Source: Candidatus Saccharimonadota bacterium
GTDB lineage: Bacteria > Patescibacteriota > Saccharimonadia > Saccharimonadales > Saccharimonadaceae
Direction: 5' to 3'
DNA length: 64,000 nucleotides
Assembly: GCA_017460105.1 (NCBI GenBank)
Contig: JAFUBS010000003.1
Location: 1-64,000, forward strand
Notes under the pieces: model-generated
What the model saw: the letters and a program-made list of their open reading frames with translations, nothing else
Database searches by the model: none
What the model was told of the DNA's origin: nothing
In this document: positions 6,223-50,739 of the stretch, piece by piece
Numbering within the stretch: position 1 is the first letter of the stretch
How the letters are laid out: each line of letters opens with the position of its first letter
Translations under genes and position numbers: made by a program

Positions 6223-6843
6223 ATGGATCCGATCAATCAACCAACACCAAATCCAACTCCAGCAGCACCGACGGCACCAAGCGCGCCAGCTGCGCCTAGT
6301 ATTCCAGAGCCAGCTAGCCCGGCTCCTGCACCAGCTGCACCAGCTACACCAGAGCCGGCCGCCTCTGCTCCAGTTACGCCTCCAGTAAAGCCAGTGTCTG
6401 CAGATATTCCAGATGTAACGGCAGTGCCAGAGGCTCCAGTGGTTACACCAGGTGCGCCAGCGGTCCCTACCCCTGCTAATCCAGTATTTCAGCCAAATGG
6501 TGGCGGACTTGTGGACGCGACCACTCCAATTACTATGCCAGAACAACCAAAAGCTCCGGACCCAGTTGAGGAAGAATTAAAGGCTCCTTTGAAGGCTGCC
6601 GCTCCAGCGCCAGGTTCGATTGGTAGTGCTGTGTCTGGTCCAGACGCAGGTGCTGGTCAGACCCCAAGTGTTTCTTTTGATGATCCTGCGATGGCAAATA
6701 CCATGCAGAGCACTGCACCAAATGCTCAGCCTGCTAAGAAGAAGATGGACAAGAAGACCCTGATAATACTTTGCGCAATTATCGGCGTTATCGTATTGGC
6801 GCTCGCGATTGTACTGATTATGCAATTAACTGGTGCTCTATAA
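6223..6843 (+). CDS. Pro/Ala-rich protein with single C-terminal membrane anchor
   Basis: A 206-residue protein of unknown function. Residues ~1-180 are a low-complexity Pro/Ala/Thr-rich stretch, probably disordered. A KKKMDKK positive patch precedes one hydrophobic helix (TLIILCAIIGVIVLALAIVL) at the C-terminus, giving a tail-anchored topology with the Pro-rich part likely cytosolic. TATAAT at ~6178-6183 and an AAGGA motif upstream of the ATG support the start. A terminator follows directly. Confidence 0.65.
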   Translation: MDPINQPTPNPTPAAPTAPSAPAAPSIPEPASPAPAPAAPATPEPAASAPVTPPVKPVSADIPDVTAVPEAPVVTPGAPAVPTPANPVFQPNGGGLVDATTPITMPEQPKAPDPVEEELKAPLKAAAPAPGSIGSAVSGPDAGAGQTPSVSFDDPAMANTMQSTAPNAQPAKKKMDKKTLIILCAIIGVIVLALAIVLIMQLTGAL

Positions 6844-6858
6844 AAAACGAATGAAAAA

Positions 6859-6887
6859 ACAGCGGGAATGAGTCTCGCTGTTTTTTT
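6859..6887 (+). terminator. rho-independent terminator
   Basis: ACAGCG (6859-6864) pairs with CGCTGT (6876-6881), with extra internal pairs, and runs into seven T residues. Confidence 0.8.
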
Positions 6888-6921
6888 GATTTTTTGAGTA
6901 AAGTATTGTAAAATATATTTT

Positions 6922-8337
6922 ATGAGAAAGACATATATTACAACTGCGATTCCTTATGTTAATGGCGCGCCACACATTGGTCATGCGATGGACTATTGTC
7001 TCGCGGATGTTTTTGCACGTTATCAAATGCTGATTGGTAATGAGGTGCGTTTTCAGGCTGGAACTGACGAGCATGGAAACAAAATTTTTCAGAAGGCGAA
7101 CGAGCTAGGGTTGCCAGTGGAAGATTATGTGAAGGAAAACTCGGATAAGTTCAAGGATTTTATTCACAAACTCAATGTGTCTTATACAGATTTTGTGCGG
7201 ACGACGGACCCGGAACACGAAAAACGTTGTCAAGAAATTTGGATGAAGCTGCGTGACCATATTTATCCAGCAAAATATGAAGGATGGTATTGTACTGGCT
7301 GTGAAAGATTTATTACCGAAAAAGAATATGAAGAAAATCACGGAATTTGTCCAGATCATCAAAAGCCTTACGAACGTCTAGAAGAAGAGAACTATTATTT
7401 TCGGATTTCGGATTTTAAGGAAAGTATAACATCGGCAATCGAAGCTGAAAAATTGAAAATCTTGCCAGAGTTTCGCAAAAAAGAAGTACTGAAGCTACTA
7501 GAAGATACGCCGGATGTGTCGGTGTCGCGGCCAAAGTCGCAGTTGACGTGGGGTGTACCGGTGCCGGATGACGAAAATCAGGTAATGTATGTATGGATTG
7601 ATGCACTCGCAAATTATATTACGGTGCTAGGATACCCGGATAAGGATATTTCGGACTGGTGGCCAGCTGCGGCACAGTTTGTCGGTAAAGATATTTTGAG
7701 ATTTCACGCAATTATTTGGCCGGCGATGTTGCTTGGGCTAGGGTTGCCTTTGCCGGAGAATTTAGTTTCGCATGGAATGGTGTTATCGGACGGGCAGAAG
7801 ATGTCAAAATCGATTGGTAATGTGATAGAACCTGTGGAAGTAATCAATAAACATGGCATTGATGCTTTCCGTTATTATTTCCTGAGACATATCGATACAT
7901 TTGCGGATTCGGATTTTACGTGGGAAAAATTTGAAAATGCATATAACAATGAGCTTGCGAATGATCTTGGCAATCTAGTGCAACGATTAGCAACGCTTGC
8001 TTCGAAGAACAATATCGTGCTTGATGATTATACCTTGGTTTTACCGGAAGAATACCGCGCGTTGATGGACAACTTTGAGTTCTCAAAAGCGTTTGACTAT
8101 GCTTGGGAAAAAGTGCAGGGGATTAATCGTCGAATCGATGAGGAAAAGCCTTGGAGTCTTGCAAAGGAAGGTAAGACCGAGGAGCTAAATGCGTGTATGA
8201 ATAGCCTGATTAATGCACTGCTGAATGCTAATCTAATGCTAAAGCCGTTCCTTCCGAATGCTTGCGAAAAAATTTCTGCTGCATTTGACAAGACTGTTAC
8301 GGTTCCAACGCAACCACTGTTCCCGAAGAGTAAATAA
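6922..8337 (+). CDS. metG: methionyl-tRNA synthetase
   Basis: A 471-residue class I synthetase charging tRNA-Met. The HIGH motif (PHIGH, residues ~17-21) and KMSKS (~293-297) are present, as are the AGTDEHG and MYVWIDALANY motifs of MetRS. The zinc knuckle is visible as CTGC and CPDH (~127-146), so the fourth ligand may be His. The protein ends after the anticodon-binding helical domain and lacks the C-terminal EMAP/OB tRNA-binding domain found in many longer MetRSs. TAAAAT ends 7 nt before the ATG without an SD, implying leaderless expression. Confidence 0.93.
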   Translation: MRKTYITTAIPYVNGAPHIGHAMDYCLADVFARYQMLIGNEVRFQAGTDEHGNKIFQKANELGLPVEDYVKENSDKFKDFIHKLNVSYTDFVRTTDPEHEKRCQEIWMKLRDHIYPAKYEGWYCTGCERFITEKEYEENHGICPDHQKPYERLEEENYYFRISDFKESITSAIEAEKLKILPEFRKKEVLKLLEDTPDVSVSRPKSQLTWGVPVPDDENQVMYVWIDALANYITVLGYPDKDISDWWPAAAQFVGKDILRFHAIIWPAMLLGLGLPLPENLVSHGMVLSDGQKMSKSIGNVIEPVEVINKHGIDAFRYYFLRHIDTFADSDFTWEKFENAYNNELANDLGNLVQRLATLASKNNIVLDDYTLVLPEEYRALMDNFEFSKAFDYAWEKVQGINRRIDEEKPWSLAKEGKTEELNACMNSLINALLNANLMLKPFLPNACEKISAAFDKTVTVPTQPLFPKSK

Positions 8338-17603: not shown

Positions 17604-18853
17604 TGAGAATCACGATCGCCACTGCTGTTTATTATCCAATGATAAATGGAGTGGCGGTTTTTTCGCATAATCTCGCAGTGGGGCTAGCGAAGCGCGGACA
17701 CGAAGTGATGGTGATTTGTCCATCGCAGACTGGTAAGAATTATACGCGGACGGTGGATGGCGTGAAGACGGTGTATCTAAAGTCTACCACGATGAAGGTG
17801 TATCCAGATCAAGTGCATACGGTGCAGCCAAAGAAGAAGGTTATGGGGGTGGAGCTGCCGCATCTACTGTATAAGCATGGATTCAAGGTGTCGGTATTTC
17901 CGGCGAGGCAGGTGAGGAAGGCTCTTGATGACTTTCGGCCGGACGTAGTACACGTACAGGTGTCCGACCCGATAGGTCTCTCGGTGGTGTCATACGCGAG
18001 GAGGCATCATATACCGGTGGTGACGACTGAGCATAATCAGCCGGAAGTGTTGACGGAGCCATTACATGTGCCAGGATTCGTGAGAAGGCCGGTAAATGCG
18101 ATGCTGAATGCGTATTTTGTAAATCGGCAGAGCAAGAGCGACTATGTGACGATGCCGACAGAACTCGCGATAGACAATTTGCTCGGCGAGAAAGATTTGG
18201 GCGTGCCGGTAAAGGCGGTGTCTAATGGGGTAGACCTCACGAACTTTCGTCCGGGGAAAGTGCCGAGTGCTATATATAATAAATATAGTATTTTGCCAAA
18301 TGTTCCGACCGTATTATATATAGGGCGAGTAGATCCAGAGAAGAATGTAGAGATGGTAATAGAGGCGTTTGATGAGTGTCTAAAGACGGTGCCGGAGGCG
18401 CAACTAGTGATAGTGGGAGATGGCGTGGACAGGGCGAGGTTGCAGACGCTGGCGAAGCGTTTGGGAATTGCGAAGTCTGTGAAGTTTTTGGGCAGGGTGG
18501 TCGGTCCGGAACTATATGACTTGTATCGCGTGGGCTGGCTGTTTGCGACAGCGTCGGAAATTGAGACGCAGGGAATAGTGTTGATAGAGGCGGCGGCGTC
18601 GGGGTTGCCGCTCGTGGCAGTGAATGCCGGTGCGGTGGCAGAGGTCTGCCGGGATGGCGTGAACGGAGAATTGTTGTTGCCGGGCGATGTGGACGGTATG
18701 GCCGAAGCAATGGTGAAGATACTGAGTAGCAAGACGCTGCGCGAAAAGTATGCGGCGAATTCGGTAAAGGTAGCGGCGGAGCACGATTTCGCGCGGACGC
18801 TGGACGAGTTTGAGAAGATATATAAGGAAGTGCAAAATCCACAATTCCACTAA
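17603..18853 (+). CDS. GT4-family glycosyltransferase
   Basis: A 416-residue cytosolic retaining glycosyltransferase with a GT-B fold. The N-terminal domain begins RITIATAVYYPMINGVAVFSH. The C-terminal domain carries YIGRVDPEKNVEMVIEAF, VGDGVDRARL and the EX7E-like motif ETQGIVLIEAAASGLPLVA, typical of GT4 enzymes using nucleotide-sugars. It resembles diacylglycerol or lipid glucosyl/mannosyltransferases, but the acceptor cannot be read from sequence. The ATG overlaps the S41 stop (TAATG). Its last codons and stop are repeated in a 3-copy 23-bp tandem array. Confidence 0.88.
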   Translation: MRITIATAVYYPMINGVAVFSHNLAVGLAKRGHEVMVICPSQTGKNYTRTVDGVKTVYLKSTTMKVYPDQVHTVQPKKKVMGVELPHLLYKHGFKVSVFPARQVRKALDDFRPDVVHVQVSDPIGLSVVSYARRHHIPVVTTEHNQPEVLTEPLHVPGFVRRPVNAMLNAYFVNRQSKSDYVTMPTELAIDNLLGEKDLGVPVKAVSNGVDLTNFRPGKVPSAIYNKYSILPNVPTVLYIGRVDPEKNVEMVIEAFDECLKTVPEAQLVIVGDGVDRARLQTLAKRLGIAKSVKFLGRVVGPELYDLYRVGWLFATASEIETQGIVLIEAAASGLPLVAVNAGAVAEVCRDGVNGELLLPGDVDGMAEAMVKILSSKTLREKYAANSVKVAAEHDFARTLDEFEKIYKEVQNPQFH

Positions 18854-18907
18854 CAAAATCGCCACAAAACCACTAATAAAACTGCCACAATTCCACTAAT
18901 ACCTCTG
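18839..18907 (+). repeat. three tandem 23-bp degenerate repeats at a gene end
   Basis: Units 18839-18861, 18862-18884 and 18885-18907 each begin CCACAAttCCACTAA-like (unit 2 has AA for TT). The first unit contains the glycosyltransferase stop codon; the other two repeat the same PQFH-stop reading in frame downstream. Confidence 0.7.
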
Positions 18908-18918
18908 TTGTTTTGGTA

Positions 18919-18947
18919 TTTACAAAGTATGCGTTTTAGGGTATAAT
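18919..18947 (+). promoter_or_regulatory. promoter of the DUF4143 ATPase gene
   Basis: TTTACA (18919-18924), a 17-bp spacer, TATAAT (18942-18947). Unlike most single genes here, a leader of ~15 nt carries AAGGA before the ATG at 18971. Confidence 0.65.
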
Positions 18948-18970
18948 AATTATACATAAGAAGGATTGTT

Positions 18971-20245
18971 ATGAATTATAGACCCAGAATAATGGATACA
19001 GTAATCAAGAAAAAGTTAAAGTCTAGCGGAGCAGTACTGATTGAAGGCCCGAAGTGGTGCGGCAAGACAACCACGGCATCAGAAATCGCAAAAAGCGAGT
19101 TGAAACTTGGTAATCCAGATGCTCTGGAGCGGGCGAAGATGCTGATGCTGGGCGGAGTTGGCAATTTGCTTGATGGTGCTGCGCCGAGGTTGATTGACGA
19201 GTGGCAGAATATTCCGACGCTCTGGGATGCGGTGCGCTCCGAAGTGGATAATCGCAACAAGATGGGACAGTTCATCCTGACGGGTTCGGCGGTGCCGGTG
19301 AATTCGCGCGACATCAAGCACTCCGGCGTGGGGAGATTCGCTTGGGTGAAGATGCGTCCGATGTCACTCTATGAGTCTGGCGACTCTGATGGTTCGGTGA
19401 GCCTCGCTGATTTGTTTGCTGGGAAGAAAATCTCTGGCGAGAACCCACTGCGTTTGCGGGATTTGGCATTTGCGGTGTGCAGAGGTGGGTTCCCCTCGTT
19501 TCTCTTGATTCGCAACAAGGCGGACCAGTTGAGTATATCTCGCGAGTATTTGGAAGCGGTGATCCATTCGGATTTGGCACGGCTGGACGGAGTGAAGCGT
19601 AGTCCAGAATATATCCGCAAACTACTGCGTTCGTATGCGAGATTTCAGGGTGAGCAGGCGGCATTGACGGAAATTAAGAAGGACATGGGTGGTATCACTG
19701 GCGAGTCGCCGAATATTAATACTGTCGTTTCTTATCATGATGCGTTGAAAAAGATATTTGTGGTGGAAGACGTGCCGGCGTGGAACCCGAACTTGCGCTC
19801 GAAAACGGCGATAAGGACTTCGGATACGAGGTACTTCGTAGATCCTTCGCTCGCGACGGCGGCACTGGGGACGGAACCAGATGGTTTAATGCAGGACTTG
19901 AATACGTTTGGGTTTGTGTTTGAGACTCTGTGCATGAGAGACATCAGGGTATATGCTGATGCTTTGGGCGGCAGAGTGTCGCGTTATCGTGATAGTAACG
20001 GGCTAGAATGCGATGCCGTCATACATCTACCGAACGGCAAATATGGCCTAGTACAAATGAAACTCGGCGGAAGCGAAGAGGAAATTGAAGATGCAGTGGC
20101 AAAGATGGACAACCTCGCTGGAATCGTGGATGAGACCAGAGAGAAGGGTCCAGCCTTCAGGATGGTGTTGGTGGGTGTAGAAAAGTATGCGTATCGGCGC
20201 GAAGATGGGGTGTATGTGGTACCGGTGGGATGCCTCAGGCCGTAG
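18971..20245 (+). CDS. P-loop ATPase with AAA_14 and DUF4143 domains
   Basis: A 424-residue cytosolic protein of a very common but functionally unassigned family. Walker A is GPKWCGKTT (~26-34), Walker B-like PRLIDEWQNIP (~74-84) and sensor LTGSA (~107-111); these define the AAA_14 part. Residues ~205-400 match DUF4143, whose end (LECDAVIHLPNGKYGLVQMKLGG) resembles a PD-(D/E)xK nuclease core with the D...QxK pattern. Such genes are often scattered and transferred between host-associated bacteria. A terminator follows at 20306. Confidence 0.85.
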   Translation: MNYRPRIMDTVIKKKLKSSGAVLIEGPKWCGKTTTASEIAKSELKLGNPDALERAKMLMLGGVGNLLDGAAPRLIDEWQNIPTLWDAVRSEVDNRNKMGQFILTGSAVPVNSRDIKHSGVGRFAWVKMRPMSLYESGDSDGSVSLADLFAGKKISGENPLRLRDLAFAVCRGGFPSFLLIRNKADQLSISREYLEAVIHSDLARLDGVKRSPEYIRKLLRSYARFQGEQAALTEIKKDMGGITGESPNINTVVSYHDALKKIFVVEDVPAWNPNLRSKTAIRTSDTRYFVDPSLATAALGTEPDGLMQDLNTFGFVFETLCMRDIRVYADALGGRVSRYRDSNGLECDAVIHLPNGKYGLVQMKLGGSEEEIEDAVAKMDNLAGIVDETREKGPAFRMVLVGVEKYAYRREDGVYVVPVGCLRP

Positions 20246-20305
20246 GGGGGGGTTGCTGGCATTGTTTACTATTAGCGGGTGCCATCGGTGTGGCGCTTAG
20301 CGCTA

Positions 20306-20334
20306 AAAATCCTGGGTTTCCCACAGGATTTTTT
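20306..20334 (+). terminator. rho-independent terminator
   Basis: AAAATCCTG (20306-20314) pairs with CAGGATTTT (20324-20332), continuing into a T run. It insulates the DGR from the ATPase gene. Confidence 0.8.
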
Positions 20335-20354
20335 GTGAAAATGGTTATTTTTAG

Positions 20355-20383
20355 TGTTTACTGTGCGGGAAATGTGATATAAT
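20355..20383 (+). promoter_or_regulatory. promoter of the DGR target transcript
   Basis: Extended -10 TGATATAAT (hexamer 20378-20383) with a weak -35 TGTTTA (20355-20360, 17-bp spacer). The expected start of transcription is at or next to 20390, the first base of the structured leader. Confidence 0.65.
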
Positions 20384-20389
20384 GGTATT

Positions 20390-20522
20390 GCAATTATCAG
20401 AAATATTTAAAATGTAGGCAGTTTAATTTATTATATTGCACATGGCAAGCATAATAACGGCATCAGGATGGTGTCAGTATGCTTGGATGTGCAACTGCCG
20501 TTTGAGTATTTCTGATAATTGC
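20390..20522 (+). ncRNA. structured leader RNA of the DGR target gene
   Basis: Concentric stems: GCAATTATCAGAAATA (20390-20405) pairs perfectly with 20507-20522. Inside, GGCAG (20417-20421) pairs with CTGCC (20495-20499), TTGCACAT (20436-20443) with ATGTGCAA (20487-20494), and AAGCATA (20447-20453) with TATGCTT (20478-20484). The loop 20454-20477 carries CATCAGGATG. A small GCACC/GGTGC hairpin follows directly. The base of the outer stem coincides with the predicted transcription start. No known riboswitch or T-box signature is recognised. It could be a 5' UTR regulator of the surface gene or an independent RNA. Confidence 0.7.
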
Positions 20523-20583
20523 ACCCTCGTGGTGCCATTTCTGTATATGACCCATGAGAAATACTAAATAAGTGAGGTAAGTC

Positions 20584-22383
20584 ATGCAGGTCATACAAAG
20601 AGCTAATAAACTAAATCATAAAAAGCGCTCTTTCTTTGCGTCTAGTTTTTTCTTCCGCCTGCTCGCCATTGCATTACGCTTACCAAATAGCAATGGCGAA
20701 CAGGAGACACAAAGGACTGGACGGGTCCTGCCGGCTGCTATTGTTGGTTTAGTCGCTGTTCCTGCAGTCATGCTTAGTTCTACTGCTCCCGTTTCTGCTG
20801 CTGAAAGTAAACTAGATTTAACCATGTCTTCTGATATTATTTCCGTAGACATTGGCTCTGCTAATGCTAACGGTACGTTCAAGAAGTCAGCCAATAATAC
20901 TATTTCTGTTACTACCGATCATTATACTGGATACACACTAAGTATTAAATCTATAGACACTTCTGCATCTACTACTTCTCCAGCACTGAAGAATGGTAGT
21001 GATACCATGCCATCCATTACATCATCACTCACCGAAGAACAATTCTCATCCATTAGTGCTACTAATTATAATAATAAGTATGGCTATCTTCCGAGTAAGA
21101 TTTGCACTACTGCGAATGAATGTACTTCTAACACCTCATTCCTCCCAGCGCCAACACTGACTGGCGATATACTAGACAAGACCAGTTCTGCTAATCCTAC
21201 TGCTAATACTTATACTATGGCCATAGGTGCTAGGATAGACCAGACTATCCCATTTGGGTCTTATTCTAATACGTTTGAAGTACTACTCGTCGCCAATGCT
21301 ATACCATATACTATTGTATATAATGATGGTGTAGTAAGTGATATGCCAGTAGATGTAGATACTACTTCTATGACTAGTAGTGTTACTATCTCTAGTAATA
21401 CTCCAGTGAGAGACGGTTATACATTTAATGATTGGTGCACTGTGCAAGTAGCAGATAATGAATCTTGTACTGGCACTACTTATGCAGCAGGCTCTACTTA
21501 TACTCTAGACCAGACTGGCACAAATAATCTTCAGTTATTTGCGATGTGGAGCGGAAGTGGCGGAGGTGGATACGGTGAAGACCATTGTACTGGTAGCTAT
21601 CCTTGTATGCAAAACATGCCAGTATCCACCTGTACTACTACCGCTACGGAAGTCCAGGATCGCCGTGATGGCAATGTCTACAAAATCCAACGTCTCGCCG
21701 ATGGCAAATGCTGGATGCTAGATAACCTTCGCCTAGACCCAACACAAGTAGACCTAGCCACACTTCAGGGCAATACTAATGCCTCTAATCAAACCCTAGA
21801 TTACTTTAAGAGCGACGAAGGTGGAAGAAGTGCAGGTAATAATTATGCCACAGCAGGCATAGGAAATCTAACGGAAGGAAATAGTTACTCAGTGCCACGC
21901 ATAAACGCAAAGTATAAAGAAACTGTTCACTCAGATTCTAGTCTAAACTACGGCAATGGCTCACATAAATACGGTGTCTACTACAACTTCTGCGCTGCTA
22001 CTGCAGGTTCGTACTGCTATGGTAACGGCACCAGTGCAGGCACTTCCGTAGGCGATGCTGGTGAAGATATCTGTCCGGCAGGTTGGCGTATGCCTACAGG
22101 CGGAGCCATTACTGTCACCACTGATGGTAAGGGTGAGTATCAAGCATTATATGCAGCATATAGTAGCAATGCTACAGGCTTTAGAAACGCCCTCTCTACT
22201 CCCCTCTCTGGCCGCTTCTACAATGGCTCGGCCGCCGATCAGGGCTCGTTCGGCTTCTTCTGGTCTTCTACGAGGCGCGGTGACGGCCCTATGTACTATC
22301 TCCGCGTGGATTCGTCCGTTGTGACCCCTCAGATCTACAGTGCTCGCTACGCCGGCTTTTCAGTACGATGCTTACTCCAGTAG
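20584..22383 (+). CDS. DGR target: secreted FISUMP / C-type-lectin-like surface protein
   Basis: A 599-residue secreted protein. A charged N-terminus of ~48 residues, partly encoded by a palindromic element, precedes the signal/membrane segment LPAAIVGLVAVPAVMLSS (~49-66) and SAA cleavage region. Residues ~75-235 form a Ser/Thr-rich beta domain; ~238-325 resemble a Listeria-Bacteroides (InlB B) repeat (VRDGYTFNDWC, LFAMW). The FISUMP domain (~345-599) has CWMLDNLRLD and CPAGWRMPTGG. Residues 535-599 are the variable repeat, so diversity is displayed at the C-terminus, probably as a ligand-binding surface. GAGG upstream of the ATG supports the start. Confidence 0.9.
   Translation: MQVIQRANKLNHKKRSFFASSFFFRLLAIALRLPNSNGEQETQRTGRVLPAAIVGLVAVPAVMLSSTAPVSAAESKLDLTMSSDIISVDIGSANANGTFKKSANNTISVTTDHYTGYTLSIKSIDTSASTTSPALKNGSDTMPSITSSLTEEQFSSISATNYNNKYGYLPSKICTTANECTSNTSFLPAPTLTGDILDKTSSANPTANTYTMAIGARIDQTIPFGSYSNTFEVLLVANAIPYTIVYNDGVVSDMPVDVDTTSMTSSVTISSNTPVRDGYTFNDWCTVQVADNESCTGTTYAAGSTYTLDQTGTNNLQLFAMWSGSGGGGYGEDHCTGSYPCMQNMPVSTCTTTATEVQDRRDGNVYKIQRLADGKCWMLDNLRLDPTQVDLATLQGNTNASNQTLDYFKSDEGGRSAGNNYATAGIGNLTEGNSYSVPRINAKYKETVHSDSSLNYGNGSHKYGVYYNFCAATAGSYCYGNGTSAGTSVGDAGEDICPAGWRMPTGGAITVTTDGKGEYQALYAAYSSNATGFRNALSTPLSGRFYNGSAADQGSFGFFWSSTRRGDGPMYYLRVDSSVVTPQIYSARYAGFSVRCLLQ
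20659..20703 (+). repeat. in-frame palindrome in the DGR target's N-terminal extension
   Basis: 14-nt arms 20659-20672 and 20690-20703 (CTGCTCGCCATTGC with GCAATGGCGAACAG, one mismatch). Downstream lies CGGGTCCTGCC at 20722-20732, the same 11-mer found in the sbcB and pheT palindromes. It encodes residues ~26-40, before the signal peptide. Confidence 0.6.
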
Positions 22384-22440
22384 TTGTTATTTAGCTTAGA
22401 GGTGATTAGATCTACTTCTTATTCTCTCCCCCAACTTTGC
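22187..22440 (+). repeat. DGR variable repeat (VR1)
   Basis: Aligns base for base with the TR (24791-25046, minus). I count about 35 substitutions at TR adenines and one at another base (TCC to TCG) in the variable core. Examples are AAC to CGC, AAT to GGT, AAC to TTC. The invariant stretch covering SVRCLLQ and the stop continues ~57 bp beyond the stop codon with one G/A difference and a 2-bp indel in the pyrimidine-rich CTCTCCCCC tract, the presumed initiation-of-mutagenic-homing site. Confidence 0.93.
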
Positions 22441-22452
22441 AATCTGGGAATA

Positions 22453-22479
22453 ATCATTCAGCCTAAAAGGCTGAATGAT
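22453..22479 (+). promoter_or_regulatory. hairpin/cruciform downstream of VR1
   Basis: ATCATTCAGCC (22453-22463), loop TAAAA, GGCTGAATGAT (22469-22479): a perfect 11-bp stem 12 bp after the VR/TR homology ends. DGRs such as that of Bordetella phage BPP-1 need a hairpin just downstream of VR for target recognition; this is the obvious counterpart. No T tract follows, so a terminator role is unlikely. The TR lacks it. Confidence 0.75.
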
Positions 22480-22496
22480 GGAAAGGAAATGGTAAG

Positions 22497-23246
22497 ATGA
22501 ATAAAAATAAGATAAATAATGTGTTTCAAGCGAGTATTTTTGACAACGAGCCGGGCCAACGCCCGGCGAGTGGCAAAAATACCCCGGTAGAAAAGGCTGG
22601 CAAACGCAAAGAGATTACCAAAGAGCCAGCGACGACGCTGATGAAGACTGTGGCTGAAAAAGCTTTCGTAGAAAGTAAGGCTCGTAAGGTCTTCAGCCAA
22701 GAAGAAATAGACGAGATTCTAGACAAGAAGACGTTTGGTGAAGATCTTACGAAACAAGATCGCGCTATCCTCCGAATACAGTACAAGAAGATGAAATCTT
22801 GGGTGAAAGAAAAGGAAGCTGGGAACCAGTCGCAAGTTATAGCCATACCGTCGCTCACGGATGGCACGGATGAATTCTACAAAGTGTTTGATTTCTCTGC
22901 GCTGTATTATGTCTATCGCTTAGCGGATAGGATGGGTAGGAATGCTACGCTCAGAATAGATAAGGACGAACGGCCAAAGATGTTGTACCAGGCAAGTATT
23001 AAAGATATTGTAAAGTTTGCAGAGCAATTTCAAGAGCTGGAAAACCCTACCATTGAGAAAACGCTGGAGGGTATATATATTTTCACATTAAAGCGGCCGT
23101 TGTCGGACGAGGAATTGGGGCAATTGCGTGCGATTGAAGAAGAACGACGTGAACGACTCAATGGTATAGTGAAGCCAAAGGCGATGGATCCAGCAGTATT
23201 TCAATCTTTACTCACGGTGGTGCGTCAAGTGGCGCCGAAGGTGTGA
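22497..23246 (+). CDS. unrecognised DGR-associated protein 1
   Basis: A 249-residue hydrophilic cytosolic protein lying between the DGR target and the RT. Residues ~1-100 are Lys/Glu-rich and likely helical or disordered. Residues ~105-215 look globular (IPSLTDGTDEFYKVFDFSAL, YRLADRMGRNATLRIDKDE). I do not recognise a family, and it does not look like the small basic Avd four-helix bundle. It begins just after the VR hairpin and is followed after 3 nt by the next frame, then the RT, so the three are likely co-transcribed. A role in retrohoming is inferred only from position. Confidence 0.75.
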   Translation: MNKNKINNVFQASIFDNEPGQRPASGKNTPVEKAGKRKEITKEPATTLMKTVAEKAFVESKARKVFSQEEIDEILDKKTFGEDLTKQDRAILRIQYKKMKSWVKEKEAGNQSQVIAIPSLTDGTDEFYKVFDFSALYYVYRLADRMGRNATLRIDKDERPKMLYQASIKDIVKFAEQFQELENPTIEKTLEGIYIFTLKRPLSDEELGQLRAIEEERRERLNGIVKPKAMDPAVFQSLLTVVRQVAPKV

Positions 23247-23249
23247 AAA

Positions 23250-23522
23250 TTGGAACGACATAATTATTATTTGGTCGGCGAGGATATGTTGAAGAATATA
23301 TATCTGATGCTGGCATATTATTATGACTACGCGCAGGGATTGGTTGATAAAAGAGAATGTGCTGCAAAAATATTGCATAGCGTGAACGAACTCTTTGCGG
23401 CTCTTACGGTATTATCTGAAACACGAACTTGGGATGCGCCAGAATCACTGAGCGTAGGCGTGAATATTAATACGGTTAGAGAAATTGTAGAGAAGAATCT
23501 CGGGATCAAAACAGAGAGGTGA
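23250..23522 (+). CDS. small helical DGR-associated protein 2 (possible Avd-like position)
   Basis: A 90-residue protein, predicted mostly alpha-helical (DMLKNIYLMLAYYYDYAQGL, CAAKILHSVNELFAALTVL). It occupies the slot just before the RT where DGRs usually encode Avd, but it is shorter than Avd (~125 residues) and acidic rather than basic, so homology is unproven. The start is uncertain: TTG at 23250 preceded by GAAGGTG, or ATG at 23286. It ends with TGA immediately followed by the RT ATG. Confidence 0.65.
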   Translation: MERHNYYLVGEDMLKNIYLMLAYYYDYAQGLVDKRECAAKILHSVNELFAALTVLSETRTWDAPESLSVGVNINTVREIVEKNLGIKTER

Positions 23523-24689
23523 ATGGACGATTTTTTTGAAATTATTAGAAGTGAAGATGATGCGCTTGCACGTGAGTGGCTGATGGCAGACGAGAAAAAT
23601 TTATTGCTAGCTGAACTCTATATTGCAGAACAACAGGCGCGCAAGGGAGGGAAGCGCAAAACACGTGACACGCATGCATTTGAAGTGAGCCTATATGAGA
23701 ACCTTTTAAGGCTTCGTGATGCGCTTTGGCGCGAGGAGTATACACCATTGACCGGTACGGCGCATGTAATTTTTGACCCTGTGCAGCGTGAGATTTTTGC
23801 CGCACCTTATTGGGACAGAGTAACGCAACATTGGGTGGTAAATAATATAGATCGATGGTGGGATAAAAGATTGATTTATGATTCGTATAGTTGTCGCGTA
23901 GGAAAAGGGACGAAGTTTGGCGTAGAGAGATTAAGACACCATATATTGTCTGTAAAGTTAAGTAATCCTACTAAGCGAGTTTTTGTAGTAAAACTGGACA
24001 TTACTGGATATTTTATGCATATTAAACGGGAATTAATGTTAGCGAGAGTGTTATGGGGGTTAGATAGACAGTTCGATGGTAATAAAAGTAAGCGTTATAA
24101 AATGTTAAAACATGCAATTACAGAAATCATTCTAGACGACCCGATAGAGGGTGTGAGAATTGAGGGCTCGTATGAAGATTGGCGGAATTTGCCAGAGGAC
24201 AAGAGCCTGTTTTGTCAACCGGAAGGGCAGGGGATGGTAATTGGGAACTTAACTTCGCAGGATTTTTCTAATATTTATTTGGATATGTTGGACAGATTTG
24301 TGACGTTACGCCTTGGTTGGAAGCATTATGGGAGATATGTGGATGATTTCTATCTTGTAGTAACCGAGGATGAACTTTCGCAGGTGAGGCGTGATATTAA
24401 GGCGATAGACACTTTTCTGAATGGAATAGGCCTAAGTCTTAATAGGAAGAAAACTCGCATAATCTCGATAGAGGAAGGTGTGCCGTTTTTGGGGATGGTG
24501 GTGAAGAGTGGTGCGATTGTTCCAGGAAAACGTATTAGGAATAATTTTTTGAATTCGGCATATAAGTTAGTAAATGGTGACGGATCGGTGGAATCTATCG
24601 TGTCGTATCTGGGGCTTTTGATGCATTCGAATAGTATAAAGATGACTTCGGATATTTTTGAGAGAGTTGGCTGGGAATACAATTGGTAG
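23523..24689 (+). CDS. DGR reverse transcriptase
   Basis: A 388-residue reverse transcriptase of the DGR clade. Finger/palm motifs in order: RVFVVKLDITGYF (motif A Asp, ~158-170), GQGMVIGNLTSQDFSN (~234-249; IGNLTSQ is diagnostic of DGR and group-II-like RTs), YGRYVDDFYLV (catalytic YVDD, ~269-279), LNRKKTRI and VPFLGMVV (motifs D/E). No endonuclease or maturase domain is present, as usual for DGRs. It copies TR RNA with adenine-specific errors into cDNA that replaces VR. GAGAGGTG precedes the ATG; the upstream stop abuts it. Confidence 0.95.
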   Translation: MDDFFEIIRSEDDALAREWLMADEKNLLLAELYIAEQQARKGGKRKTRDTHAFEVSLYENLLRLRDALWREEYTPLTGTAHVIFDPVQREIFAAPYWDRVTQHWVVNNIDRWWDKRLIYDSYSCRVGKGTKFGVERLRHHILSVKLSNPTKRVFVVKLDITGYFMHIKRELMLARVLWGLDRQFDGNKSKRYKMLKHAITEIILDDPIEGVRIEGSYEDWRNLPEDKSLFCQPEGQGMVIGNLTSQDFSNIYLDMLDRFVTLRLGWKHYGRYVDDFYLVVTEDELSQVRRDIKAIDTFLNGIGLSLNRKKTRIISIEEGVPFLGMVVKSGAIVPGKRIRNNFLNSAYKLVNGDGSVESIVSYLGLLMHSNSIKMTSDIFERVGWEYNW

Positions 24690-24743
24690 AAAGCCGATGG
24701 TAGACGTGTTCGACTTCGGATGGTGGAGTTTTGCTTGTGACGT

Positions 24744-24770
24744 CCGGAAGCCTCTCTGAGCTCCTTCCGG
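24744..24770. terminator. stem-loop between the RT stop and the TR
   Basis: CCGGAAG (24744-24750) pairs with CTTCCGG (24764-24770). On the plus strand GAGATTTTTCTTTC follows, so it may terminate RT transcription; on the minus strand it would sit just 3' of the TR and could end or stabilise the TR RNA. Confidence 0.5.
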
Positions 24771-24790
24771 GCGTGGGAGATTTTTCTTTC

Positions 24791-25046
24791 GCAAAGTTCT
24801 GGGGGAGAGAATAAGAAGTAGATCTAATCATCTCTAAGCTAAATAACAACTACTGGAGTAAGCATCGTACTGAATTGCCGTTGTTGCGATTATTGTTGTT
24901 CTGAGGGTTCACATTGGACGAATTCACGTTGAGATTGTACATATTGTTGTCATTGTTCCTCGTAGAAGACCAGAAGTTGCCGTTGGAGCCCTGATTGTTG
25001 GCCGAGCCATTGTTGAAGTTGCCAGAGAGGGGAGTAGAGAGGGCGT
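24791..25046 (-). repeat. DGR template repeat (TR)
   Basis: On the minus strand the TR reads through the same frame as VR1 but with 23 AAY codons in place of the variable residues (for example GNFNNGSANNQGSNGNFWSS). AAY codons allow many amino acids but no stop when adenines are randomised. Homology to VR1 runs from ACGCCC (25046) past the stop-codon equivalent to GCAAAGTT (24791). The TR is antisense to and convergent with the RT, a less common DGR layout. Confidence 0.94.
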
Positions 25047-25273
25047 CGTGGCCTGGTCGCCGAGAGTCTATGTATAGCAACATTACGTCCAATAATCCGC
25101 AGAAAGAATGCTCATGTATACCATTGGCCGTAGCCGCCGGCTTTTTTATACTCAGCTCATCGCTAAAGTGCATTCTTTGAACTTTGCTGTTAAAGAAACG
25201 GATGAGGCGATAGAGCGCTTGGTTGTTTGCAGCTCGCCGTCGCGACATCTGCGATATCTCCTCTATAATTATA
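25047..25273 (-). ncRNA. 5' part of the TR transcript with its own promoter
   Basis: The minus strand carries TATAAT (25268-25273) about 222 nt upstream of the TR. The transcribed stretch includes a 9-bp stem (AAAGAATGC at about 25104-25112 with GCATTCTTT at about 25170-25178 on the plus strand). DGR TR RNAs are known to need structured flanks. A minus-strand ORF runs from 25248 through the TR with GAGGAG in front of its ATG, but I regard it as read-through of the template, not a gene. Confidence 0.5.
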
Positions 25274-25489
25274 TATTATGCCTGAACGATTTGTATGATT
25301 TTGTGCGAATTGTTCAGTTGAGTGAACAATTTGCTTGGCTTTTGACAAATTGTTCAGCGGCGTTTACCGGAAGCATGATGCTTTTTCGCGATAAGTGCGG
25401 GTGTGGGGTTGAAATAATAATTGTTTAATGATACATTTGCTTTGGCGGGATTGCATTTTAGAGTAAAAACGCGAAGAGAAAGGAGGGCT
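25274..25489. other. non-coding stretch between TR promoter and leuS region
   Basis: No convincing gene. It holds three near-copies of TTGTTCAG / ATTGTTCAG (about 25307-25353), that is, short direct repeats of a GAACAAT motif. A plus-strand 106-codon frame from 25108 crosses the TR leader and lacks support. Confidence 0.4.
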
Positions 25490-25573
25490 ATGAAGAAAGA
25501 TTTAGAAATAAATCTACTCTTTGGTCTAATAAAGATCAAAAAGATTTCTTCCAAAAGGAAGAAATCTAAATAA
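25490..25573 (+). CDS. possible 27-residue basic peptide
   Basis: ATG at 25490 preceded by AAGGAGGG (an ideal SD, 5 nt spacing) opens a 27-codon frame beginning MKKDLEINLLFGLIKIKK, ending in a Lys/Arg/Ser-rich tail and TAA. The tail is encoded by a perfect 11-bp hairpin, AGATTTCTTCC (25542-25552), loop AAAA, GGAAGAAATCT (25557-25567). It could be a genuine micro-peptide or a leader for leuS; no family is recognisable. Confidence 0.35.
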   Translation: MKKDLEINLLFGLIKIKKISSKRKKSK

Positions 25574-25685
25574 CCCTTAACGTAATTCTATCGCGCTACG
25601 CTAATTAAGTCAAGGCCTTTTCGGGTCTTCGCGCCCGTAAGGGTAGCAACCCCGCCAGAACGGGTCATTTTTGAATATTATATGG

Positions 25686-25691
25686 TATAAT
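25686..25691 (+). promoter_or_regulatory. -10 box of leuS, leaderless spacing
   Basis: ATGGTATAAT ends 8 nt before the ATG at 25700; no SD motif is present. Confidence 0.6.
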
Positions 25692-25699
25692 ATATTATT

Positions 25700-28078
25700 A
25701 TGGATAGATATGAACCACTGAAGATTGAAGCAAAATGGCAAGAGAAATGGGAAGCGGAGCAGCCATATCGGGCGACAGAGAAGCCTGGCGTGCCAAAGAT
25801 GATGCTCGCAGAGATGTTCCCATATCCGAGCGGAGCTGGGCTTCATGTGGGACATGTGCGTAACTTTACTATCGTGGACGTCCTGACGCGATTTTATGAG
25901 CAGCAGCGGATGAATGTGATGCGCCCGTTTGGGTATGATACCTTTGGTCTGCCGGCGGAGAATTATGCGATAAAGACTGGTGTTTCACCGAAGGTGGCGA
26001 CCGCGACGAATATCGCGAATTTCCGTAAGCAGGCGAAGCGACTGGGTTTCGCAATAGACTGGTCGCGCGAGATAAATACCTCTGATCCAGAATACTACAA
26101 GTGGACGCAGTGGTGTTTCTTGCAACTCTACAAGAAGGGTCTGGCTTATCAGAAAGAGTCGTATCAGTGGTGGTGCCCGGAGGATCAGACGGTGCTTGCG
26201 AATGAGCAGGTAGAGAACGGCAAGTGTTGGCGCTGTGGGCGCGAGGTAGAAAAGAAGAAGATGAAGCAGTGGTTCTTCAGAATCACTGAGTATGCGGACG
26301 AGTTGTTGGACGAGATTGATGCGTTGGACTGGCCGGAGAAAATCAAAACGATGCAGAAGAATTGGATCGGCCGCAGCGTTGGCGCAGAAATTGATTTTGA
26401 AACGACGGATGGAGCGCCAAAGATCACAGTCTTTACGACGCGGCCGGATACGATTCTGGGGGCGACGTTCCTCGTGCTGGCGCCAGAATATCCTGGACTA
26501 GATTATATTGTGAGTGATGATTGCCGTGATGCGGTGGCAAAGTATAAGGCTGATGCGCTAAAGAAGTCCGAGATTGAACGTCAGGAAAATAAGGAAAAGA
26601 CAGGCGTCTTTACTGGTGCTTATGCCGTAAATCCGGCGACTAAGGAAAAAATTCCAATTTGGGTGGCGGATTATGTACTAGCTGGATATGGCACGGGCGC
26701 AATCATGGCGGTACCGGCGATGGATGAGCGCGACCGTGAATTTGCAGAGAAGTTTGATTTGCCGATCGTGGAGACAGAGCTCGTCGATAGAGATTTGTAT
26801 GGTACGCCGAAAGTGACTTACAAGATGCGTGACTGGCTGATTAGCCGTCAGCGTTATTGGGGCTGTCCGATTCCGATTGCTTATGATAAAGACGGCAACC
26901 CGCATCCGATTCCGGAAGACCAGTTGCCGGTAATGATTCCAGAAGTAGATGATTATCGTCCAGATAATTCTGGTCGCTCTGCTCTCGCAAAGGCGAAAGA
27001 TTGGCTAAAAGTAGAAATTCCAGTGACCGACCCGAAGACTGGCAAGACTCACATGGAAGAAATGACGCGCGAAACAGATACGCTCGATGGCTACGCGTGT
27101 TCGTCGTGGTATCTCTGGCGTTATGCTTCGCCGCACGACACGGAATATGCCTGGAACCCCGAAGCAATTAAATATTGGGAGCCAGTGGATGTGTATGTGG
27201 GCGCAGATCATGCGGTGGCGCATTTGTTGTATATCCGGTTCTGGTGTAAGTTTTTTGCGGATGAAGGATTTTTGCCGTTCCGCGAGCCGATCAAGAAATT
27301 AATCTATCATGGTTACATTAATGCACCAGATGGTAAGAAGATGAGTAAGTCCAAGGGCAACGTAATTGACCCGCTAGATGTGATAAATGATGGATATGGT
27401 GCAGATACGCTTCGCACTTATGAGATGTTTATTGGACCGGTGGAACTCGATGCTGCGTGGGACCCACGCAGTGTGGGTGGCGTGTATCGATTCCTGAATC
27501 GATGTTATAATCTAATGACAGATAAAGGTAAGGAATCGGCAGCAGCGTGTCCTTCGGACACGCTCCGGGCCGCTCAGGCCAAGTCTTCAAGGTCCGCAGA
27601 ACACCGTGCTACCGATTCCTTACCAAGTTCTGAAAATTGTGCCATTAGGCATAAGACAATTAAGAAAGTGACAACCGATATACACAAGTGCAACTTCAAT
27701 ACGGCGGTGGCGGCGCTGATGGAATATGTGAATGAACTGTATAAGGTCGGGGCGACAGCTGAAGACCTCGTGGTACTTGCAAAATTGCTCAAGCCTTTCG
27801 CGCCACACTTGGCGTCAGAAATGCTGGAAAGATTAGAGGCAGACGATGAGTGGCCGAAGTGGGATGAGAAGTATCTGGTAGATGAGAATGTAGAAATCGT
27901 AGTGCAAGTGAATGGCAAACTTCGTGCGAAACTAAATATTGCCGCAGATGATGCAACAAACGAAGACAAAGTCAAAGAACTCGCATTTGCAGATGAAAGA
28001 ATCCAAAAATACACCGCTGGTGGTGTAAAGAAAGCCATCTTTGTGCCACGAGCGAAGCTGCTCAATCTCGTTGTATAA
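25700..28078 (+). CDS. leuS: leucyl-tRNA synthetase
   Basis: A 792-residue class I synthetase charging tRNA-Leu. HIGH appears as HVGH (~50-53) within MFPYPSGAGLHVGHVRN. The zinc/CP1 region and editing domain show TTRPDTILGATF and GTGAIMAVPAMDERD with the discriminating Asp. KMSKSKGN (~549-556) is present, and the anticodon domain runs to the C-terminal VQVNGKLRAK. Residues ~609-642 are an insertion encoded by a palindromic DNA element, placed just before the anticodon-domain helix that begins HKTIKKV. The stop is 2 nt before the next gene. Confidence 0.95.
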   Translation: MDRYEPLKIEAKWQEKWEAEQPYRATEKPGVPKMMLAEMFPYPSGAGLHVGHVRNFTIVDVLTRFYEQQRMNVMRPFGYDTFGLPAENYAIKTGVSPKVATATNIANFRKQAKRLGFAIDWSREINTSDPEYYKWTQWCFLQLYKKGLAYQKESYQWWCPEDQTVLANEQVENGKCWRCGREVEKKKMKQWFFRITEYADELLDEIDALDWPEKIKTMQKNWIGRSVGAEIDFETTDGAPKITVFTTRPDTILGATFLVLAPEYPGLDYIVSDDCRDAVAKYKADALKKSEIERQENKEKTGVFTGAYAVNPATKEKIPIWVADYVLAGYGTGAIMAVPAMDERDREFAEKFDLPIVETELVDRDLYGTPKVTYKMRDWLISRQRYWGCPIPIAYDKDGNPHPIPEDQLPVMIPEVDDYRPDNSGRSALAKAKDWLKVEIPVTDPKTGKTHMEEMTRETDTLDGYACSSWYLWRYASPHDTEYAWNPEAIKYWEPVDVYVGADHAVAHLLYIRFWCKFFADEGFLPFREPIKKLIYHGYINAPDGKKMSKSKGNVIDPLDVINDGYGADTLRTYEMFIGPVELDAAWDPRSVGGVYRFLNRCYNLMTDKGKESAAACPSDTLRAAQAKSSRSAEHRATDSLPSSENCAIRHKTIKKVTTDIHKCNFNTAVAALMEYVNELYKVGATAEDLVVLAKLLKPFAPHLASEMLERLEADDEWPKWDEKYLVDENVEIVVQVNGKLRAKLNIAADDATNEDKVKELAFADERIQKYTAGGVKKAIFVPRAKLLNLVV
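27527..27624 (+). repeat. in-frame palindromic element inside leuS
   Basis: Perfect 13-nt arms GGTAAGGAATCGG (27527-27539) and CCGATTCCTTACC (27612-27624). Inside are a perfect GCGTGTCC-ttc-GGACACGC hairpin (27545-27563) and GGCC-gctca-GGCC. The inserted Ala/Ser-rich peptide is absent from LeuRS motifs known from other bacteria, and the reading frame is preserved. Confidence 0.75.
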
Positions 28079-49300: not shown

Positions 49301-50739
49301 TGAAATATCGATTAGATTCTAGATTATTGAGGTGCCTATCGATGGGGATATCTGGTGTTGTCCTCGGAAGCACACTACTTACTACTGTAGCTTCCGCCAC
49401 CTCTACCCCACTCACCTGGCAAGACGAAGTAGATGTCCAGTTTACCTTCAACCCAGCACTTTCTGTTACTATTTCTGATGGAGATATAATAATACCTAAT
49501 CTAGGTGTGGGAACAAGAGATAATAGTAATGAGATAGCTATTACAGTAACCACTAATAATATAGCAGGCTATCAACTATCTGCTACAGTAGGTAACTCTA
49601 CTACATATGACTATAGGGAATTAAAACATGAAACCACTAATACGGCATTATTTAATAGTCTAGCAGTAGGTACTACACTAAACCAACTATCTACTCCAAG
49701 TACATGGGGATACTCTACTGATTCTGGTACATCTTATTCTGGTCTTCCTAAATATGATGATACTACTAATGTAGCAATACTTAATGATTCTACTGCTTCT
49801 GGCACTGAGACTACTAACTTCCTCATAGGTGCTTATGCAGATCAGAATCAACTTGCTGGTGATTACAGAAATGTAATTAACTTCAATATCGTAACCAACC
49901 GTGTTCCAGTTACTTGGGAAATGGCCTATGCTAATGCTAGTAAGACTAAAACTGATGGCTACTACTCTATCCAAGATGCTACTTCTGCTATGTGTACTGA
50001 AGTAGATATGAACGAGACTATTACAGTACGTGATGTGCGGGATGGTGAGACTTACTTAATTGGTAAGTTGGCGGACAATAAATGTTGGATGCTGGATAAT
50101 CTTGCACTAGACCTCACTAACCCATCAGTCTTAAATTCACTTAGTTCTGCTAATACCAACATAGACTCAGCTACTGAGACTGCTACACTTAAGAGTCTAA
50201 AAGAAGGCAATAGAACAACGGAAACTCCATGGTATGCAGATGGTACATTTGTCGCAGCATGGGACAGTACACACACTACCGACTATTACAACCGTGCTAG
50301 CGTAAATGTAGCAAGTAAGAACACTACGGTTACTAGTTATGGCTCTGGTAGTGGCAAAGTAGGAGTATACTATAACTACTGTGCAGCAAGTGCGGGTTCA
50401 TATTGTTATGATGAAAATGCAGGTACTAATAATGCTACCCAAGACATCTGCCCAGCAGGCTGGCGTATGCCTACTGGTAGTGACAGTGGAGAATACCAAG
50501 TCCTTTACGCAGCATATGGCAGTAATGCAACCAACTTCAGAAACGCCCTTTCTATTCCTCTTTCTGGTAGTTTCAGCTATGGCTCGGCTCGCAATCAAGA
50601 ATCTATCGGTTTTTTCTGGTCTTCTACAAGGAACAGTGATAATAATATGTACGACCTCGCCGTTGGTTCGTCTTTTGTGTCTCCCCAGGCATATAGTTAC
50701 CGCGTTGCTGGCAATTCAGTGCGTTGCTTGCTCAAATAG
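49300..50739 (+). CDS. secreted FISUMP-domain surface protein with VR-like C-terminus
   Basis: A 479-residue paralogue of the protein at 229. Signal peptide ~8-32 (LSMGISGVVLGSTLLTTVASA). Residues ~33-200 are nearly identical, also at the DNA level, to residues ~33-205 of the 229 gene. The FISUMP domain follows (CWMLDNLALD, CPAGWRMPTGS). Residues 415-479 align with the DGR variable repeat (FWSSTRNSDNNMYDL close to the TR reading FWSSTRNNDNNMYNL). The start at 49300 (MKYRL) is chosen over ATG 49285 because GGGAGG lies 7 nt before it and TAATG couples it to the upstream gene. Confidence 0.87.
   Translation: MKYRLDSRLLRCLSMGISGVVLGSTLLTTVASATSTPLTWQDEVDVQFTFNPALSVTISDGDIIIPNLGVGTRDNSNEIAITVTTNNIAGYQLSATVGNSTTYDYRELKHETTNTALFNSLAVGTTLNQLSTPSTWGYSTDSGTSYSGLPKYDDTTNVAILNDSTASGTETTNFLIGAYADQNQLAGDYRNVINFNIVTNRVPVTWEMAYANASKTKTDGYYSIQDATSAMCTEVDMNETITVRDVRDGETYLIGKLADNKCWMLDNLALDLTNPSVLNSLSSANTNIDSATETATLKSLKEGNRTTETPWYADGTFVAAWDSTHTTDYYNRASVNVASKNTTVTSYGSGSGKVGVYYNYCAASAGSYCYDENAGTNNATQDICPAGWRMPTGSDSGEYQVLYAAYGSNATNFRNALSIPLSGSFSYGSARNQESIGFFWSSTRNSDNNMYDLAVGSSFVSPQAYSYRVAGNSVRCLLK
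50542..50739 (+). repeat. VR-like region of the 49300 gene
   Basis: Aligns without gaps to the TR over 66 codons. Variable codons coincide with TR AAY codons, but silent changes at non-adenine positions (GGC to GGT, CAG to CAA, GAC to GAT, GTG to GTT) show drift or a different template. A CACCCCTGT-gat-ACAGGGGTG hairpin lies ~25 bp after the stop (about 50764-50784), reminiscent of the hairpin after VR1. Confidence 0.65.

Follow-up and report, generated by a model that had tools for sequence, protein, structure and literature searches.

A diversity-generating retroelement of gut Saccharibacteria with a reverse-strand template repeat, probable dispersed FISUMP targets and a candidate guide element in the template leader

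The window, which designates the whole stretch of 64,000 nucleotides analysed here, is part of contig C7 of a 649-kb genome assembled in 13 contigs. It contains a diversity-generating retroelement (DGR) at positions 20584-25046, composed of a FISUMP target gene with its variable repeat (VR), an Avd-like accessory gene, a DGR-type reverse transcriptase (RT) and a template repeat (TR) on the opposite strand. We estimate at about 85% the probability that this locus is a genuine DGR of gut Saccharibacteria, the whole of the mechanism proposed below being included in this reading. The DGR is real, and its layout and the number of its targets are new; a guide-like element detected in the leader of the template RNA also looks new.

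Components of the retroelement and comparison of TR and VR1

The genes are arranged on the plus strand in the order target (20584-22383), accessory gene (22497-23522) and RT (23523-24689), and are followed by the TR (25046-24791) on the minus strand. There is a single RT and a single TR, the latter just 3' of the former and on the other strand. An Rfam scan of positions 18000-27000 gave no match. The RT relatives that could be found by name are MAGs of Candidatus Saccharibacteria, from the ruminant gut for most of them. The RT (388 aa) displays the motifs IGNLTSQ and YVDD and matches PF00078. In a profile search of the solved structures, the first match was the DGR RT of BPP-1 (8ub7_A, E = 1e-36), with group II intron RTs behind it. 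The assignment to the DGR type, already made in the original prediction, is based on these motifs and on this profile search, the phylogenetic tree being composed of DGR relatives.

The target gene encodes a protein of 599 aa with a FISUMP domain at the C-terminus (PF09603, E = 2e-9; TIGR02145, E = 6e-13). The TIGR02145 match and an apparent secretion signal, read from the sequence of the N-terminus, agree with the secreted FISUMP target that had been predicted. The predicted structure of the domain has a pLDDT of 87.6 and was compared with the C-type lectin fold; the Foldseek top match is the C-terminal domain of Lcl, at a weak score (E = 0.07). FISUMP proteins are probably surface-exposed, and it is a plausible suggestion that the diversified target may help an epibiont to recognise its host.

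The adjacent VR, named VR1 (22187-22440, plus strand), comprises the last 65 codons of the target, the stop codon and 57 bp of the 3' UTR. Its computational alignment with the TR (25046-24791), which the original prediction had proposed as a check, reveals 37 substitutions, 36 of them at TR adenines: 35 are located in the coding part and one beyond the stop codon, at 22402. The sole non-adenine substitution (TR C to VR G at 22249) is synonymous, and the only indel, of 2 nt, is located in a C tract 8 nt before the end of the homology. Read in the frame of the target, the TR contains 23 AAY codons, and 35 of their 46 adenines are changed in VR1, a proportion near three quarters, as expected from random bases. 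Non-adenine changes affect 0/59 first and second codon positions and 1/52 third positions, and the adenine bias is highly significant (Fisher p = 9e-16). The extent of the VR, the number of AAY codons and the count of about 35 adenine changes with one other change in the variable core are all as first read from the sequence. The other adenines of the VR core, outside the AAY codons, are unchanged (0/11), which selection after mutagenesis would explain.

The identity of VR1 and TR continues for 57 bp past the stop codon (22381-22383), with the small indel in the C tract, as had been announced. This segment of the 3' UTR (22384-22440) ends in the IMH-like sequence CCCCCAACTTTGC, the TR counterpart being the IMH*-like sequence CCCCCAGAACTTTGC. 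A hairpin (22453-22479, plus strand), absent after the TR, is found 12 nt beyond the end of the homology; it had been predicted at this position with an 11-bp stem, which measures in fact 12 bp. This stem length was reached by 0/200 shuffles, and the z-score of the RNA fold is -4.8. Among relatives, a stem of at least 7 bp follows the VR in 20 of 52, versus 2% of shuffles, and is thus not universal. The TR/VR homology runs past the stop of the target in all the relatives where a stop is read (50/50, median 34 bp), and adenine changes amount to 976/2536 in the coding part versus 26/183 past the stop. Where the homology past the stop measures 20 bp or more (45 relatives), TR/VR mismatches are concentrated in the last 12 nt (58/540, versus 9/1163 elsewhere in the post-stop part). 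As far as sequence comparison can tell, this clustering is the IMH/IMH* pattern, and it matches the distinction of IMH and IMH* described for BPP-1 (PMC3240598). The RT, the adenine-specific TR/VR pair, the hairpin and the IMH-type signals have thus confirmed that the locus is a DGR.

Accessory gene and orientation of the TR

The locus had been called complete. The parts of the cassette are present, but this word needs a reservation because the accessory gene, missed at first, is interrupted by an in-frame TGA at 23244-23246 (plus strand). The first part of the gene (22497-23246, 249 aa) encodes an N-terminal alpha/beta domain and the first helix of an Avd-like bundle, after which the TGA falls, and the second part (23250-23522, 90 aa) encodes the remaining helices; both ORFs are in one frame, and relatives read through. 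In nearly all relatives, the gene between VR and RT is one ORF of 265-390 aa. The structure predicted for the intact protein of relative L091 (pLDDT 86) has a four-helix bundle at its C-terminal end, and residues 213-321 match Avd of BPP-1 (8ub7_C) with Z of 14.1-14.4 and an rmsd of 2.0 over 104-106 aligned residues. Because unrelated helical bundles reach Z of 10-12 in the same list, the gene context counts too for the Avd assignment. Judging from this model, the accessory protein of the relatives holds an Avd-like domain. Searches against Pfam, NCBIfam, PHROGs and PADLOC gave no family match beyond a marginal PHROG hit. A MutS-like N-terminal domain, which had been suspected, was found neither by profile nor by fold searches, which barely probed this part of the model.

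Because of the TGA, the element may have been recently crippled in this genome, or may be running with a split accessory protein; with this interruption, any present activity is putative. We consider it rather unlikely that the element is dead, with the TGA as a nonsense mutation and the VR1 pattern as a relic. The TGA does fall within the Avd-like bundle of a gene that is intact in nearly all relatives, but over 254 nt VR1 still departs from the TR, outside the adenines, by a single substitution and a 2-nt indel, the RT is intact, and the second part of the accessory gene keeps the frame over 90 aa from a TTG start three bases after the TGA.

In relatives, TR/VR pairs were detected by self-comparison followed by an adenine-bias filter. 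Among the 51 typed loci of the tree, the TR is antisense and downstream of the RT in 38, sense and upstream in 10, and sense and downstream in three, and the tree needs 3 changes to account for all three layouts. The loci with an antisense-downstream TR form one clade, with one exception (the close relative L093, whose TR is sense-downstream). The order of the TR is inherited across this clade, where it occupies the same place and strand and is separated from the RT by 5-180 nt in most loci. An antisense TR-like segment is also present in L090, which is outside the typing by the filter since its VR reads as N. The canonical loci (sense-upstream), which come from Bacteroidales, Moraniibacteriota and others, appear as a side branch of the tree. 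A sense and upstream TR is found in all but one of the typed outgroup and viral relatives; a TR was detected in 66 viral relatives, in the canonical layout for 65 of them and in no case antisense.

The TR antisense to RT and target, predicted from the window and now aligned on the minus strand, is on these phylogenetic grounds a lineage trait of the Saccharibacteria clade, and the layout is worth describing, as had been proposed, because it is the conserved state of this entire clade. The Saccharibacterium L141 and the bacterium L135, both with a sense-downstream TR, adjoin the antisense clade, which suggests that the TR moved downstream of the RT first and was inverted afterwards. The layout indicates that a TR may function when transcribed on its own from the opposite strand.

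FISUMP copies remote from the cassette

TR-like DNA was detected at 14 further sites of the genome (E of 2e-5 or less), located in FISUMP paralogs. Codon-aware counts reveal in 10 of these copies an excess of changes at AAY adenines over non-adenine third positions (p 2e-7 to 2e-3), and in the copies C3:53726, C11:23220 and C11:63155 the non-adenine changes at first and second positions are 0/59. These counts demonstrate, on the sequences compared, an adenine-targeted divergence at 10 dispersed FISUMP paralogs beyond the adjacent target. Selection on binding residues could favour the AAY positions but would give no reason for third positions within these codons to stay unchanged. The copies of this genome look older than VR1. 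At TR position 184, TR and VR1 have a C and 13 of the 14 remote copies differ from both, so that these copies have not been rewritten of late and the writing of VR1 is more recent. The 3' UTR motif and the hairpin are retained by C11:63155, are decayed in C3:53726, C1:12891 and C7:136271, and are found in no other remote copy.

In relative G049, five remote VRs are located on separate contigs, with 17-26 of 32 AAY adenines changed versus 0-3 of 62 non-adenine third positions. They carry independent variants, and their identity starts at the 5' border of the TR in all five; the IMH and the hairpin were looked for and are absent from all five. Remote VRs were found in G052 and G190 too, one of G190 being changed at 26/46 adenines versus 0/141 other positions, and none was found in G021. 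The simplest reading of the G049 sequences is direct writing in trans. Because remote VRs of a relative appear rewritten without them, the homing signals that the original prediction placed in the 3' UTR are supported at the adjacent target and are not strictly necessary at remote VRs.

We regard as unlikely the alternative in which homing never reached the remote copies, only VR1 being rewritten and snapshots of it being spread by ordinary gene conversion or duplication. The FISUMP genes are indeed mosaic, with stretches of 100% identity upstream (L181), the G049 remote VRs are devoid of IMH and hairpin, and the remote targets of Treponema denticola were read as possible leftovers or duplications (PMC4891356). 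However, conversion tracts should end anywhere, whereas in all five G049 VRs the TR 5' border marks the beginning of the match, and the AAY codon states common to VR1 and any remote copy are not above expectation (genomes G000, G052 and G049). The sequence evidence is thus read here as one cassette serving many genes, and not as a single-target system. VR1 is co-directional by GC skew and 8 of the 10 biased remote copies are not, the contigs being short; this contrast is suggestive and fits the orientation preference reported in PMC12875486. The number of FISUMP copies per genome ranges from 0 to at least 37 across the genus. We have rejected the idea that the FISUMP expansion itself is an effect of the DGR, because copy number does not follow DGR presence and genomes where no RT was found (G004, G033, G051) can hold more than 30 copies.

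The TR-RNA leader and comparison with known systems

The presumed leader of the TR RNA extends over 25047-25273 (minus strand) and includes a TATAAT at 25273-25268 that we take as a putative promoter and that is not among the minus-strand matches listed by the promoter scan. In the proposed mechanism, a minus-strand promoter of its own would drive transcription of the TR, giving an RNA whose leader measures about 220 nt. RT and accessory protein would reverse-transcribe this RNA, placing random bases opposite its adenines. The resulting cDNA would replace the 3' ends of FISUMP genes; its main destination would be the adjacent VR1, which has IMH and hairpin, and other FISUMP paralogs would be reached in trans less frequently. 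A leader antisense of 9-17 nt would probably pair with the coding strand of the target next to the cDNA end, and/or fold onto IMH* for priming.

The leader element of the window, GCAAAGTTC (25179-25187, minus strand), is antisense of the IMH. It matches 8 nt of VR1, which is not significant alone, 9 nt of the TR, and 10 nt of C11:63155 and C7:136271. The TR 3' end GAACTTTGC (24791-24799, minus strand, IMH*-like) is complementary to it, with p = 0.03 for this locus alone. In 51 loci of the antisense clade, the mean helix score of the TR 3' end with the leader is 18.4, versus 15.6 +/- 0.3 when leaders are swapped (z = 9.1), whereas other TR windows give z < 1. With the VR end of the target, the signal is stronger (z = 16.7): the leader often carries an antisense copy of 9-17 nt of the target 3' end (IMH), which matches the VR better than the TR. 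Several windows and scoring schemes were tried first in these tests, and the effect was large in all of them. A perfect antisense of at least 9 bp is present in 21/51 loci versus 3.1% with swapped leaders, mostly 94-180 nt before the TR; controls gave 5/51 on the sense strand and 2/51 downstream of the TR. The canonical loci, gathered afterwards as a separate check and including related phages, display such an antisense to the VR in 31/64 cases versus 3.5% swapped, and to the TR end in only 7/64; the element peaks at about 119-135 nt before the TR, and the first base specific to the VR is frequently where it starts.

At positions that distinguish VR from TR, the element fits the VR, as in L130 (VR CCATCTCCTTTTTTG, leader CAAAAAAGGAGATGG, TR CCCTCTCCTATTCAC). 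Covariation was observed between L124 and L126 (RT identity 84%), with one T in the VR and one A in the leader, and between L132 and L145 (RT identity 70%), with G to A in the VR accompanied by C to T in the leader. In BPP-1, 9-nt antisense matches to the VR occur in avd (AATCAGGTG, antisense of VR CACCTGATT) and in the spacer (AGGTGGTCA), a single case that constitutes no proof. Local folding is unremarkable (z -0.8 for the TR leader, -0.3 for the trailer). We recognised no BPP-1-like spacer, because the complementarity of the sequence downstream of the TR to the TR end does not exceed that of swapped controls. The target of the element is absent from the remote VRs of G049 and G052, and the element therefore cannot be essential for all rewriting.

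We propose that the leader element may guide target recognition. The full reading, to which we give somewhat less than even odds, is that the template RNAs of DGRs have a guide-like element some 95-150 nt before the TR, antisense to the IMH and VR-specific flank of the target. By anchoring the RNA-cDNA hybrid on the coding strand of the VR in its single-stranded state, this element would distinguish target from template. This would be a general step of RNA-guided retrohoming in this DGR lineage. In gut Saccharibacteria, leader and TR would thereby form a self-contained unit able to serve many genes and to be inverted behind the RT. The complementarity could also reflect an internal fold of the TR RNA, in which the leader pairs with IMH* for priming and the better VR match is a by-product. 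The TR end does pair significantly with the leader (z = 9.1), some helices extend into the TR-specific flank, and the BPP-1 spacer that primes cDNA synthesis (PMC12875486) can pair with IMH*; we nevertheless find this explanation improbable, given the stronger VR signal (z = 16.7) and, at canonical loci, helices that often start at the first VR-specific base and reach 9 bp far more frequently with the VR than with the TR (31/64 versus 7/64). An antisense regulator of the 3' end of the target mRNA with no homing role is very unlikely: the element is antisense to the target transcript near the stop codon in every case, but it tracks the IMH, a homing signal, and not a start or ribosome site, and its fixed distance to the TR (mostly 94-150 nt) points to a function within the TR RNA particle.

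How the cDNA of DGRs finds the VR and spares the TR is incompletely understood according to the 2026 literature (PMC12875486). If the guide reading is true, the covarying target antisense carried by the template RNA would provide a simple and testable answer to this choice, and the leader element could be used to retarget diversification in laboratory strains. The remote copies illustrate how one small cassette can allow a genome of 649 kb to maintain a varied set of proteins, probably exposed at the surface.

The locus shares with the BPP-1 DGR of the Bordetella phage (mtd/avd/TR/brt) the RT family, an Avd-like accessory protein, the adenine-specific change from TR to VR, and the IMH/IMH* with a downstream hairpin at the target 3' end. 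In BPP-1, however, the TR is located between avd and brt on one strand and a 3' spacer is needed for priming, whereas here the TR is downstream of the RT on the opposite strand. RT and TR are also transcriptionally separate in the 'inverted' DGRs of Shewanella, Vibrio and Photobacterium (Schillinger 2012, PMC3521204), where only the RT is on the opposite strand, TR, VR and target being together. The present locus is not of this type: RT, accessory gene and target are on the plus strand, and the TR alone is reversed relative to the RT and, in most loci, to the adjacent target. The same work raised TR and VR on opposite strands merely as a possibility, backed by distant VRs of one Pseudogulbenkiania strain. 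The multi-target DGRs of T. denticola (PMC4891356) and of cyanobacteria (PMC7517822) likewise combine one RT and TR with paralogous targets at remote sites, the VRs of which are changed at TR adenines; up to seven targets, FGE-sulfatase or kinase-linked, are reported for them, versus 10 significantly biased remote FISUMP copies in the 649-kb genome studied here. Ultra-small bacteria are rich in DGRs, as described for CPR/Patescibacteria (Roux 2021, PMC8144416; Dore 2024, PMC10907252, citing Paul 2017). In these texts, the CPR targets are described as AAA-ATPase fusions or proteins without recognisable domains, whereas the targets described here are secreted FISUMP proteins and the RT lineage adjoins RTs of Bacteroidales and phages.

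FISUMP genes and contig ends

The genome to which the window belongs contains eight contig ends, on the contigs C1, C3, C4, C7, C10 and C11, that are located at most ~1 kb from a FISUMP domain. The FISUMP family is therefore a frequent break point of the assembly. Two further FISUMP genes of the window, at positions 889-1623 and 49963-50733, display a TR-like end, with an adenine bias that is not significant in either case (p = 0.56 and p = 0.054, respectively).

Repeats flanking the retroelement

A strong nested inverted repeat is present 5' of the target gene (window 20389-20523), with a predicted RNA fold of -60.9 kcal/mol (z = -8.8). The search of Rfam with this repeat gave no match and no full copy was found elsewhere in the same genome; it possibly represents a structured leader or a mobile remnant. 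At the other end, repeats of the TGAACAATTTG/CAAATTGTTCA type are localized immediately upstream of the presumed start of the TR-RNA (window 25283-25357) and could be operator sites.

Reverse transcriptases and variable repeats of relatives

In two related genomes, the DGR-like RT matches, at C5:20128-21294 in G041 and at C31:3206-4372 in G014, are located in open frames of unusual length (672 and 561 aa, respectively), which are perhaps fusions. In a third relative (G052; C20, C28, C10 and C6), some adenine-biased VRs stop short of the TR stop and the reading continues beyond, so that they may be included in multidomain proteins. In the locus L090, from a UBA2866 genome, the record consists of N precisely over the VR of the RT-adjacent target (6725-6948), starting at the first variable codon and extending as far as the hairpin; this run may be an assembly gap due to hypervariable reads, or masking. 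Finally, the saccharibacterial locus L141 contains a second TR/VR pair with adenine bias (7258-7787), ~6 kb from the RT.
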